Shown piece by piece: positions 9,128 to 44,301 of a DNA stretch of 64,000 bases; within the stretch, counting starts at the first letter, position 1; each line of letters begins with the position of its first letter. The notes below the pieces were generated by a model. That model was not told the origin of the DNA. It saw only the letters and a list, made by a program, of their open reading frames with translations, and did not search any database. Source of the stretch: Phycisphaerales bacterium (GTDB lineage Bacteria > Planctomycetota > Phycisphaerae > Phycisphaerales > UBA5793); NCBI GenBank assembly GCA_020852515.1, contig JADZAS010000011.1:1-64000 (forward strand), written 5' to 3'. Position numbers and translations under genes: made by a program.

Positions 9128-10828
<1,701 letters not shown>

Positions 10829-10836
10829 AGGCGGGA

Positions 10837-10842
10837 ATAGTA
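10837..10842 (-). promoter_or_regulatory. -10 box TACTAT of glnS
   Basis: TACTAT on the minus strand, 8 bases before the glnS ATG; no ribosome-binding site in between. Confidence 0.5.
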
Positions 10843-10846
10843 GGAA

Positions 10847-10862
10847 GCGAAGACGCAAGCGG
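10847..10862 (+). repeat. Imperfect inverted repeat, left flank of transposase gene
   Basis: GCGAAGACGCAAGCGG; its imperfect reverse complement lies at 11513-11529, immediately beyond the transposase stop codon. The two differ at three substitutions and a one-base insertion. They may mark the ends of the RAYT-like unit or recognition hairpins. Confidence 0.35.
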
Positions 10863-10871
10863 AGGCGGGAG

Positions 10872-10877
10872 TACAAT
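10872..10877 (+). promoter_or_regulatory. -10 box TACAAT of the RAYT-like gene
   Basis: TACAAT followed by eight bases and the GTG start at 10886, without a Shine-Dalgarno site. Confidence 0.5.
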
Positions 10878-10885
10878 GCGGCGCT

Positions 10886-11503
10886 GTGGCGAGAAAGACC
10901 ATCGGACACCACCTCATCCTCATGCTCTACGGCCACTGGCTGCCCAACGACCCGCGAGGATCGGGCTCCGATGACTTCTACGACGAGAAATTCGCGCCGC
11001 TTGGGAGCATCCACCACGGACGAAAGCCCGAGCCGCTGCAGCCCACTCGCGAAGAACTGCGGCAGTTCCACCGCGAGGCGGAGCCGCTGCTGAACTTCCC
11101 CGTCGTCTGGATGGATGAAGCGAAGAGGCAAGCCGCTACGGACGCGATCGGCGAAACCCTTCGCGAACGAGGCTACACCTGCTGGGCGTATGCCGTTCTG
11201 CGCAACCACGCGCACATCGTGATTCGCATCCACCGTGATGATGGAAAGACCATGTGGGACTGCTTCGCACGGGCCATCGCCGACCGCTTGCGTCTTCGCT
11301 TCCCCAGCGACTGGAAAGCGTCGCACCCCGTGATCTCAGCGCGTCCCTATGATGTGTTTCTGTATACGCCTGACGACGTGCGCACTCGAATCGCGTATGT
11401 CGAAGGCAATCCGCAGCGCGAAGGACTGCCCCATCAGCACCACGACTTCGTCACGCCATACAACAACTGGCCGTTTCACAAAAAGCCCCCGCTGAAGCCG
11501 TGA
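10886..11503 (+). CDS. REP-associated tyrosine transposase-like protein (IS200 Y1 family)
   Basis: 205 residues. The HUH nuclease motif is NHAHIVI (about residues 110-116) and the downstream [12 protein letters not shown] matches the Y-x-x-NP-x-x-GL region that carries the catalytic tyrosine in TnpA_REP (RAYT) enzymes. The N-terminal [18 protein letters not shown] is typical of the planctomycete branch. RAYTs are single-copy, non-mobile relatives of IS200 transposases that act on REP hairpins. It starts at GTG 10886, eight bases after TACAAT. It sits on the plus strand between glnS and gltX, both minus, with imperfect inverted repeats on each side. It appears intact. Confidence 0.82.
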
Positions 11504-11512
11504 CATACGCCA

Positions 11513-11529
11513 CCGCTTTGCGCCATCGC
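11513..11529 (-). repeat. Imperfect inverted repeat, right flank of transposase gene
   Basis: Partner of the repeat at 10847-10862. It lies between the transposase stop codon and the gltX stop codon (the two genes converge), so it cannot be part of a coding region. Confidence 0.35.
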
Positions 11530-11530
11530 A

Positions 11531-13201
11531 TTACGCTCCCGCAAACGCCTCCAGACACCTTCGAATTCGGTTCACCGTGGAGACCCGGCCCAGGATGGCC
11601 AGCGTTTCGTATATCGCCGGTGAGATCGTCGTGCCCGTGACGGCCACGCGCAAGGGCTGGGCCACTTTACCGAGGTTGCCGCCTGCGTGCTGCTGCACGT
11701 ACGCGCCGATTGTCCTCTCGAGCGAGGGCACCTCCCAGTCATCCTGCTCTTCGAGAATTGGCAGGAGGTTTTCGAGGTGCGCGCGGCCGGGCATTTCGCC
11801 GCCCAGCATCGCCTTGCGCGCGTTCTTGTCGGCCGGGTCATATTCGATCGCGTCGTCGGATTCGATGAAGAACCGGCTGGAGCGGACCTGGTCGTCAAGC
11901 GTCTTGGAGCGCTTGTGATTCGCCGCCGCCAGCAGGTCGAAGTGCTCGGGCGGGAGTTTCTCAAGAAACTCGGTGTGGAACTCATTGCAGTGAGCGCGGA
12001 ACAGATCCACGAACTGCTGCGTCGAGAGCGCCTGGATCGCATCGTGGTTGAACGACAGCAGTTTGGCGCGGTCGAACCTGGCCGGGCTCTTGAGCACGCG
12101 CTCGAAACTGAGCTTCTCGATGAGAAAGTCGCGATCGAATTTCTCGATGTCGCCGCCGGGGTTCCAGCCGAGCAGGGCGAGGTAGTTGCACAGCACCTCG
12201 GGCAGGTAGCCGCTGCGGCGGAAGTCATCGACGTTGATCTCCGGCAGGGACACATCCAGCTCATCGGCGAGCATCATCGCGCTGTCGAACTCAAGTTGCC
12301 GGTCCTTGTCCTTGAGCCACTCGTCGATGCCGGCCGTTCGGCGGAACTCGGCGCTCAGATCATCGATGCCCTTCTCCCGCACCGCCGCGCGCAGCGCCTT
12401 GTCCTTGTCGCGCTTGGACATCTTCGAGCCGTCGGGATTGAAGATCAGCGGCAGGTGCGCGTAGACGGGCCGGCGAAAGCCCAGCGCATCCTGCAGCACC
12501 ATGTGCCGGGCCGTGTTCATGAAGTGCTCCTGGGCCCGGAGCACGTGCGTCACCTGCATGAGTTCATCATCGACCACGACCGCGAAGTGATAGGTCGGAT
12601 AGCCGTCGGCCTTGCGTATGACGAAGTCATCGAGTTGCTCGGGCGCAATCGTCGCCTCGCCGAGAATCTCATCGCGGATGACGATGGGCTGCTCGGGGAG
12701 TTTGAAGCGGATGACAGCCGGCTCGCCGGCCTTGAGGCGGCTCTCAACGTCTTCGGGCGGCAGCATGAGCCCCGCGCGGTCGTAGCGGTAGTTCTGGTTT
12801 TCCTTGCGCGCCTCGACCCGCTTGGCGTCGAGTTCGGCGGCCGTGTCGAATGCGTAGTAGGCCTTGCCCTCGGCGACGAGCTGGTCGAGGTACTTCGTGT
12901 AGATCTCCAGGCGCTGGCTCTGGAAGTACGGGCCGTAGTCGCCGCCGCCGCAGTCTTCAAACTCGGGCCCTTCATCCCAGTTGATGCCGAGCCACTTGAG
13001 GTCGCGCAGGAAGCCGACGCTGGCCGCGTCGCTGCTGCGCTTCTGGTCGGTGTCTTCGATGCGCAGGATGAACTTGCCGCGGTTCTGGTGCGCGAACGCC
13101 CAGCAGAACAGCGCCGTGCGGGCGCCGCCGACGTGCAGATGGCCCGACGGCGAGGGGGCAAACCGGGTGCGGACGATCGGCGGATGCGGTGAAGCGCTCA
13201 T
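11531..13201 (-). CDS. gltX: Glutamate--tRNA ligase
   Basis: Charges tRNA-Glu (and supplies glutamyl-tRNA for other pathways). 556 residues, somewhat longer than typical bacterial GluRS. HIGH motif as PSPSGHLHVGGARTAL (about residues 17-31), KMSKS as DGSKMSKRDKDKA. The ATG at 13201 is chosen because the catalytic domain begins a few residues later; a longer frame upstream has no protein-like content. TACCGT lies nine bases before the ATG and no Shine-Dalgarno site is seen. It faces metK divergently. Confidence 0.97.
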   Translation of the reverse strand: MSASPHPPIVRTRFAPSPSGHLHVGGARTALFCWAFAHQNRGKFILRIEDTDQKRSSDAASVGFLRDLKWLGINWDEGPEFEDCGGGDYGPYFQSQRLEIYTKYLDQLVAEGKAYYAFDTAAELDAKRVEARKENQNYRYDRAGLMLPPEDVESRLKAGEPAVIRFKLPEQPIVIRDEILGEATIAPEQLDDFVIRKADGYPTYHFAVVVDDELMQVTHVLRAQEHFMNTARHMVLQDALGFRRPVYAHLPLIFNPDGSKMSKRDKDKALRAAVREKGIDDLSAEFRRTAGIDEWLKDKDRQLEFDSAMMLADELDVSLPEINVDDFRRSGYLPEVLCNYLALLGWNPGGDIEKFDRDFLIEKLSFERVLKSPARFDRAKLLSFNHDAIQALSTQQFVDLFRAHCNEFHTEFLEKLPPEHFDLLAAANHKRSKTLDDQVRSSRFFIESDDAIEYDPADKNARKAMLGGEMPGRAHLENLLPILEEQDDWEVPSLERTIGAYVQQHAGGNLGKVAQPLRVAVTGTTISPAIYETLAILGRVSTVNRIRRCLEAFAGA

Positions 13202-44247: not shown

Positions 44248-44267
44248 ATGCCTGCCTGCGCAGGCAT
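44248..44267. repeat. REP-like hairpin
   Basis: ATGCCTGC-CTGC-GCAGGCAT: an 8-bp stem, 4-base loop. It has the style of the extragenic REP-type repeat whose translation reads MPAQAGI and which is widespread in bacteria. A second remnant of such a unit (GCGGGAATCC) lies at about 44187-44196. Both are in the 220-bp gap between the kinase gene and the pilin-like gene. Confidence 0.5.
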
Positions 44268-44301
44268 GACGGTGCTGGCGCACCCTCGGGGAAAAAAATC
44301 G

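Follow-up and report, generated by a model that had tools for sequence, protein, structure and literature searches.

Repeats and transposases in described systems

Single strands of REP elements are reported to be cut and rejoined beside the hairpin by TnpA_REP (PMC8266576), and RAYT transposases are described as co-evolving with REPs, which in some genomes are confined to the vicinity of the gene (PMC2817692). In the REP-rayt-REP unit the gene of an HUH transposase is flanked by inverted repeats with a GT(A/G)G head, and the accessible part of that report was found to contain no mention of REPs inside the rayt reading frame (PMC2817692). The tnpAREP genes of subclass 2.4 do carry in-frame REP insertions, which according to the portion of the source available to us are of variable length and generally situated after HuH and before Y, in what modelling indicates to be a peripheral region (PMC6006769). 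TnpA_Y1 class 3, known from Planctomycetes, Acidobacteria and Proteobacteria, is characterized in the same portion by a YV..EQ motif, a CnGA foot and atypical non-GTAG structures around the gene (PMC6006769). REPs of the GTAG and CGTC types, as far as the accessible text goes, are also read in frame as protein within genes unrelated to transposases (PMC3733652).

Here we describe a gene in a stretch of planctomycete DNA of 64,000 nucleotides, which as a whole is called the window, and which has features in common with each of these systems. The HUH transposase and the flanking inverted repeats resemble the REP-rayt-REP units, the planctomycete hosts and the non-GTAG structures around the gene resemble class 3, and the reading of REPs in frame as protein is shared with the intragenic GTAG and CGTC REPs. 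As in subclass 2.4, REPs occur both around the transposase gene and in frame inside it, at two places termed site A and site B. Unlike subclass 2.4 there is no insertion at site A, which precedes the HUH motif, site B lies in a helix before the tyrosine, and both sites are helical in the predicted structure; membership in subclass 2.4 was rejected on these grounds. In addition, it is through codon choice that the copies agree with the REP variant of the genome, a covariation left undescribed for subclass 2.4 in the part of the source accessible to us (PMC6006769). Class 3 was rejected as well, since the window protein reads YVEGNP instead of YV..EQ and N175 is found in at least 90% of 49 sequences; the family mostly reads Y[VI]xxNP, and the repeat has a GA(G/T) flank in G003, one of the genomes of the window's genus (here G001 to G004, with the window's own genome as G000). 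The REP-rayt-REP units differ in the head of the repeat, as mostly GAG or GAT precedes the stem in 21 copies from G003, and the intragenic GTAG and CGTC REPs differ in that here the host is the transposase's own gene, with fixed positions across a clade.

In-frame REPs in tnpAREP genes are already known. What sets the present case apart is the lack of an insertion at site A, the location in core helices, and the tracking of the flanking and genomic variant at the level of codons; no report of REP-matching codons in a transposase gene was found in the open-access literature, supplementary files aside. TnpA_REP genes and REPs are, to our knowledge, otherwise poorly described in planctomycetes. 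The locus offers an approach to the question of how REPs and transposases stay matched while both change: the embedded copies can be set beside the flanking and genomic ones of a single genome, and by synonymous recoding the role of the DNA site can be told apart from that of the protein. The case also points to an influence of a mobile repeat on the protein sequence of the very enzyme acting upon it.

The transposase gene and its flanking repeats

The 702-bp gap between glnS (minus strand, start at 10828) and gltX (minus strand, open reading frame ending at 11531) holds one plus-strand open reading frame (Table 1). It lies on contig C11 of a 4.72-Mb genome. The intact reading frame with NHAHIVI that a preliminary description had placed here is borne out; the tyrosine motif named alongside it is also present, with the spacing Y-x-x-x-NP (Y-V-E-G-N-P) and not Y-x-x-NP.

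Table 1. Positions of the transposase gene and of the associated repeats in the window
Feature	Position	Strand	Remarks
Upstream REP copy U, GGAAGCGAAGACGCAAGCGG	10843..10862	+	core conserved in G002 and G003
Possible -10 hexamer TACAAT	10872..10877	+	by eye; 8 nt upstream of GTG
RAYT-like Y1 HUH transposase gene	10886..11503	+	205 aa, GTG start; NHAH (H108, H110); candidate catalytic Y171 (YVEGNP)
Embedded REP copy, site A	11117..11133 (near-copy span 11116-11135)	+	16/17 bases identical to U; codons E78-A-K-R-Q-A, helix start, before HUH
Embedded REP copy, site B	11284..11303	-	exact 20-bp reverse complement of U; codons (D)RLRLRF, end of the helix that follows HUH and precedes Y
Downstream degenerate REP copy D, GCGATGGCGCAAAGCGG on minus strand	11513..11529	-	exact GCGAAGACGCAAGCGG downstream of the G003 gene

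The HUH motif and the downstream tyrosine in a Y..NP context are those of RAYT or TnpA_REP proteins, and in the 49 sequences H108 and Y171 are invariant and H110, like N175, is conserved in at least 90%. An AlphaFold2 model of the window protein (pLDDT 89, pTM 0.86) has its best PDB match in 4er8_A, the structure of a RAYT in complex with a REP hairpin (E 1.3e-4, probability 1.00, TMq 0.46). The NCBIfam model NF047646 (REP_Tyr_transpos) matches with E 6.3e-8 and 32.6 bits, below its curated cut-off of 80, and a Pfam search of the protein gave no match at E 1, Y1_Tnp included; we therefore call the protein RAYT-like and not a member of the NCBI equivalog. Within these bounds the RAYT-like identity proposed before is supported, by the sub-cut-off match (E 6e-8) and by 4ER8 as the best fold. 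At E 0.01 the Pfam model Y1_Tnp detects 6 out of 16 members of the family.

The leaderless-type start that had been suggested is plausible by eye from the position of TACAAT relative to the GTG, and TAGAAT and TAAGAT occupy a similar place in two orthologues (by eye), but a promoter scan at the gene returned 0 promoters and did not pick up the hexamer. If TACAAT is the -10 element, the upstream copy U would cover the place of the -35 element at about 10849-10854. A further imperfect inverted pair (10865-10880 and 11527-11542, 13/16) surrounds the gene, and it overlaps the hexamer TACAAT considered here as a possible -10 element.

The imperfect inverted repeats previously listed at 10847-10862 and 11513-11529 are present. 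The members of this outer pair, GCGAAGACGCAAGCGG and GCGATGGCGCAAAGCGG, differ by two mismatches and one gap by eye, and the pair is absent from the ungapped repeat list; the segment at 11513-11529 resembles a degraded version of the element seen in U. What went unnoticed in the first reading is that 10843-10862 and 11284-11303 form an exact 20-bp inverted repeat with its second arm inside the gene. It is the sole exact inverted pair of at least 17 bases within 1 kb in the 64-kb window, which contains three matches with up to three mismatches to the upstream repeat (0.02 expected). As an exact copy also follows the gene of G003, the locus has four copies there: upstream, A, B and downstream. 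The repeats are conserved around orthologous genes insofar as the upstream GCGAAGACGCAAGCGG is kept in G003 and G002; the downstream repeat is present in G003, and none was seen by the truncated G002 gene.

A REP stands on each side of the gene in inverted orientation, U on the plus strand and the degenerate D on the minus strand in the window, and an exact pair in G003. The proposal of a boundary-defined module is supported in part by this arrangement, which corresponds to that of REP-rayt-REP; against it, the right copy is degenerate, the orientation of the flanking repeats varies among the other homologues, and there is no clean excision scar. The last point emerges from the spacing of glnS and gltX in relatives without the gene, a comparison the preliminary description had called for. 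The gap is far shorter there, with about 75 bp in G004 and roughly 75-90 bp in G004 and G001, 42 bp of the ~75-bp gap of G004 align to neither flank, and this gap retains a REP-like GCGAAGGCGCAACCG.

Orthologues occupy the same gap in G003 and in G002, where the C-terminus is truncated, and the gene is absent from the gap in G004 (gltX identity 95%, the nearest of five relatives tested) and in G001 (82%). The protein identity between orthologues (73-75%) is similar to that of gltX (78%), for which reason we read the history of the gene as probable vertical descent with losses. An intact mobile insertion sequence of the IS200 type, in place of a resident gene, would fit the Y1 HUH fold and the empty site in the nearest tested relative; it is made very improbable by the one close copy in the window's genome and by the same site in three genus members, at an identity resembling that of gltX. 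The transposase gene is itself this only close copy, the second match in the genome being at E 0.008.

A search of genomes at E 1e-40 gave matches in at least 10 out of 392. Among the related loci in named genomes 33 out of 34 have planctomycete titles, 17 of these Phycisphaerae or groups within. Identical entries were counted once (L006 = L080 = the L036 gene; L003 = L032; L004 = L033). The locus L032 (WYBR01000095.1) is titled Vicinamibacteraceae (Acidobacteriota); its gene matches contig C79 of G003, in the window's genus, and the title looks wrong.

Repeat copies within the coding sequence

In the AlphaFold2 model site A forms the start of helix 78-95, ahead of the HUH strand, and site B the end of helix 120-138, ahead of the catalytic tyrosine. 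An alignment of 16 rows has no gap at site A, and near site B two extra residues occur in only 2 out of 16 rows (window and G003).

To quantify the agreement of gene and flank, we compared all 15-mers of 35 homologous genes with the 300-bp flanks of the gene they came from. The mean score over the whole scan is 10.37 (sd 0.88), and the ten top-ranking columns by mean score are without exception columns of site A, with a maximum of 12.11, or of site B, with a maximum of 11.31. With their own flanks the genes reach 13.34 matches out of 18 at site A and 12.63 at site B, with swapped flanks 11.97 and 11.55, respectively, and the true gene-flank pairing was reached by 0 out of 20000 permutations at A and likewise by 0 out of 20000 at B. 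In a null model of synonymous recoding, with the protein fixed and the codon usage of each gene retained, the Stouffer z is 7.4 at A and 4.4 at B against a background of 187 columns with a mean of 0.96 (sd 1.26) and a next unrelated column of 2.4; as the homologues are related, these z values and the permutations overstate independence. If the set is thinned to below 55% identity (about 20 genes), site A retains a mean z of 4.7 and ranks among the top three columns in 200 out of 200 draws, and site B retains 2.8. At a pairwise identity below 50% (about 10 genes) the mean z is 2.6 for A, which is among the top three in half of the draws, and 2.0 for B.

The choice of codons has the same tendency. 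We counted it in 18 genes picked for an AKRQA-like peptide or a match at site A. The glutamine codon at site A is CAA in 17 out of 17 cases, compared to 40 out of 106 glutamine codons elsewhere in the same genes, and the arginine codon is AGG in 8 out of 17 cases, compared to 20 out of 353 elsewhere. The embedded copies match their own flanks at the nucleotide level beyond the requirement of the protein. That AKRQA and RLRLR are simply needed by the protein, and resemble the repeat by chance, is accordingly hardly credible: the AKRQA peptide is indeed common in the homologue family, but the recoding null, the swapped flanks, the codon choice and the genome-wide matching of variants contradict such an explanation. 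Relatives of the YGFW type have, by eye, different residues at site A, which means that the fold does not generally require AKRQA.

For single genes the picture is more varied. A gene-flank match at A or B beyond 40 out of 40 shuffles was obtained for 13 out of 36 genes. Beyond these, the match of L007 overlaps the columns of site B and that of L045 lies three to four columns after site A (about four codons on), three genes match at the gene ends only and 18 fail the shuffle test, with no gene-flank match in the 40-shuffle test for L041 and L047, for example. In L040 the copy is found at about residue 64 and again in the C-terminal tail, and not at A or B. When compared to the flanks of the three nearest relatives, a sign test yields 20:10 for A, 20:11 for B and 21:4 for a control column, which is no separation; a ranking of the 187 columns by their mean margin over the nearest relatives puts A on top, in a tie with an overlapping column, the unrelated column 45 third and B seventh.

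Among the homologues with a match, the majority shows it at a single site, either A or B. This bears on a possible control at the level of the mRNA, where A and B would pair in the transcript or embedded hairpins would slow the ribosome. In the window A and B are complementary in 16 out of 17 positions at a distance of 152 nt, as such pairing would demand, but with one site only in most matching homologues the pairing is not conserved, and the hairpin itself is weak; we regard this kind of control as highly unlikely.

A phylogenetic tree places those of its genes that match at A or B in one group of 25 leaves (support 99/97), with L007 outside, and the embedded copies may have a single origin. 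A general trait of planctomycete Y1 transposases was considered and discarded: four out of 21 other relatives pass the shuffle test, all at the gene ends and none in the core. These relatives comprise 19 members of the YGFW or YGYW type, among them L026, which lacks its N-terminus, and the nearer L083 and L084. The locus L121 was likewise dismissed as another embedded case, as its repeat copies fall outside the open reading frame, one of them beyond the stop.

The truncated or frameshifted genes L059, L061, L063, L064 and L065 were left out of the sets for the flank scan, swap, recoding, sign, codon and thinning analyses (35 out of 40 kept). The shuffle test omitted proteins of less than 140 aa (L059, L061, L064 and L065; L027), and likewise L085 and L086 as duplicates (36 out of 40 and 21 out of 24 kept), and the tree was calculated without L056 and L062 as well and with six outside relatives added.

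Agreement with repeats elsewhere in the genome

The unit of G003 reads GA(G/T)GCGAAGACGCAAGCG(G) with sharp boundaries in 21 copies from 20 loci, which were chosen among the exact matches listed for places away from the gene. These copies have no GT(A/G)G (GTAG) consensus at the foot, with A at -2 in 21 out of 21 and G, T or A at -1, and a GTAG-tagged REPtron was rejected for lack of this foot. Across lineages the letters can be read roughly as GCS-N4-SGC-AAGCS, that is a 3-bp stem, a 4-base loop and an AAGC tail, and by this reading the GCG..CGC and GCC..GGC types are compensatory and the GCG..GGC type is not. As single-stranded DNA the fold is weak, with -2.4 to -3.0 kcal/mol where it is formed and in several cases no better than many shuffles; the hairpin is not formed in the AGAGGC (GAGGC) type and on one strand only in the AAACGG type.

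Exact copies were counted on both strands in 20 genomes per search, including the copies at the gene. The counted variants were mostly chosen from embedded copies, and the count covers variants other than those of L038, L040, L049, L052 and L034. The variant GCCAAAAGGCAAGCC occurs 11 times in the genome of L046 and 0 times in the other 19, and GCGATGGCGCAAGCG occurs 14 times in the genome of L045, four times in G001 and at most twice in the rest. For GCGAAGAGGCAAGC we found 22 copies in the genome of L036, 15 in that of L035 and four each in those of L037, L042 and L043, with five in G479, two in G003, one in the window's genome and 0 in the other 12. The variant GCCNAACGGCAAGCC has 186 copies in the genome of L039, 80 in G111, 33 in the genome of L048, nine in that of L046 and at most two elsewhere; the respective controls with the reversed pattern are 1, 44, 16 and 5, and the high values in the last three genomes are to be expected, since by its letters a REP reading GCCGAACGGCAAGCCG contains the reversed pattern. 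In the genome of L039, 25 out of 25 listed copies of GCCNAACGGCAAGCC read AAAC, in that of L048 30 out of 33 read GCCGAACGG (GAAC), and the L048 protein possesses glutamate (SAERQA) where the AAA-type genes encode lysine (AKRQA).

In most genomes counted, the genomic variant is the variant embedded in the gene. There are exceptions: G479 has five copies of GCGAAGAGGCAAGC although its gene L056 is of the GCCAAACGGC type, which occurs just twice there; G111, with 80 copies compared to 44 in the control, holds a mixture of variants, and its gene L053 has a copy that differs from the flank; L037 at site A is one base off the variant counted in its genome; and the exact count of the GCCNAACGGCAAGCC type found no copy in the genomes of L050 and L052.

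The flanking repeat does have copies elsewhere in the genome of the window, where the preliminary description had proposed to look for them, but it is nearly extinct there, with five exact copies in total and three of these at the transposase locus. One of the two others lies between two phage-like genes (C15:35763; one capsid-like by eye), the second inside an open reading frame that resembles tgt (C26:15009; named by eye). With up to one mismatch there are 37 matches, compared to 16 for the reversed pattern; the corresponding numbers are 110 and 8 in G003, and 59 and 7 in G002. In G003, 39 out of 42 listed matches to GCGAAGANGCAAGC read ACGC, and 4 out of 42 are at the gene. A homologue with 57% identity is found elsewhere in G001, where the flank holds GCGAAGGCGCAAGC and site B reads GCTTGCGCCTCCGC; among the matches listed for this genome GCGAAGGCGCAAGC accounts for 14 out of 36 near-matches (hand count). 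The glutamate codon ahead of site A follows the upstream REP within the genus, with GAA in the window and GAG in G003 and G002. Site A itself is off the genomic repeat by one base (AGG for ACG), whereby arginine is kept and not replaced by threonine, and at this site the protein seems to win over the repeat.

These observations bear on the idea that the transposase gene serves as a master copy, i.e. that the genomic REPs are short pieces copied from the coding sequence and therefore follow its codons. An argument in its favor is the repeat GCGAAGAGGC of L035, L036, L037, L042 and L043, which spoils the 3-bp stem and yet suits the codons Ala-Lys-Arg(AGG)-Gln-Ala, and another is that in the genomes of L037, L042 and L043 two, two and three out of four copies, respectively, can be assigned to the transposase locus from their contig and spacing. 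L035 and L036, by contrast, come from genomes in which most copies are away from the gene. The genomic repeat in the window's genus is GCGAAGACGC where site A reads AGG, so the REPs there do not follow site A and match site B instead, and the glutamate of L048 in place of the lysine of many relatives looks as if the protein had followed the REP. We consider such a master copy rather doubtful, though it does not exclude the explanation preferred below.

A proposed self-limiting gene and possible passive homogenisation

We propose, with a probability of about one half, that the gene encodes a RAYT-like transposase which is kept vertically in single copy, has its recognition repeat around the gene and at two fixed coding positions, and limits itself. 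The short REP GCS-N4-SGC-AAGCS would be the recognition site of the protein, which could nick and rejoin REP single strands in the manner of TnpA_REP, and the embedded copies A and B would then be substrates of the very protein they encode. Strand exchange or conversion between REPs, together with selection, might keep the embedded and the genomic REPs in step. The self-limitation would lie in the enzyme binding the promoter-proximal REP (U) and cutting its own gene, which would make high expression costly. A new REP variant copied into the gene would alter gene and target together.

The main rival is passive homogenisation, which explains nearly as much as this proposal. Here the REPs would have fallen on, or arisen in, tolerant parts of the gene, and their likeness would be kept up by ordinary gene conversion, or by template switching among inverted repeats close to each other, neither gene nor host gaining from it. 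Site A is inverted relative to site B, and site B of the window relative to the upstream copy, an arrangement prone to template switching. Of five genus members the gene is absent at the site in G004 and G001 and truncated in G002, so that selection on the gene looks weak, and the accessible part of an earlier report describes REPs within unrelated genes (PMC3733652). Local template switching alone, however, leaves the agreement with REPs scattered over the genome unexplained, and in the model A and B are ordered helix positions, not loops. We hold passive homogenisation to be a tentative but serious possibility.

The proposal of a self-limiting gene can be extended. The gene might act as an archive of its repeat family, in which the scattered REPs and the codons of two core helices form one co-evolving sequence: changes of the repeat would rewrite the enzyme and vice versa, specificity and target would be locked to each other, and the gene would be its own target. 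This extension is speculative, and we think it rather unlikely as a whole.

Other repeats and Y1 genes of the genomes

A REP-like hairpin at 44248-44267 of the window had been brought into connection with the transposase gene. It belongs to a real repeat of moderate copy number: its 17-base core at 44253-44269, TGCCTGCGCAGGCATGA, has 11 exact copies in the genome, and with up to two mismatches there are 38 matches, counting overlapping palindromic hits on both strands, many of them on contig C15, compared to one for the reversed pattern. The sequence is unrelated to the repeats of the transposase gene, and none of its copies lies within 1.5 kb of the six Y1_Tnp matches in the window's genome. 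It is not tied to the transposase gene and was rejected as a partner repeat.

These six further Y1_Tnp matches (L117-L122; contigs C13, C11 at 150398, C15, C30, C21 and C5 of G000) include five above the Pfam cut-off, and some repeated 13-mers occur around all six. In G003 the repeat is also found in tandem with a step of 24 bp (L115, C87:12230-12315; L116, C98:39105-39142). In G111, 60 out of 80 listed copies of GCCNAACGGCAAGCC are arranged in inverted pairs whose starts are 27 bp apart, similar to a REPIN or BIME.
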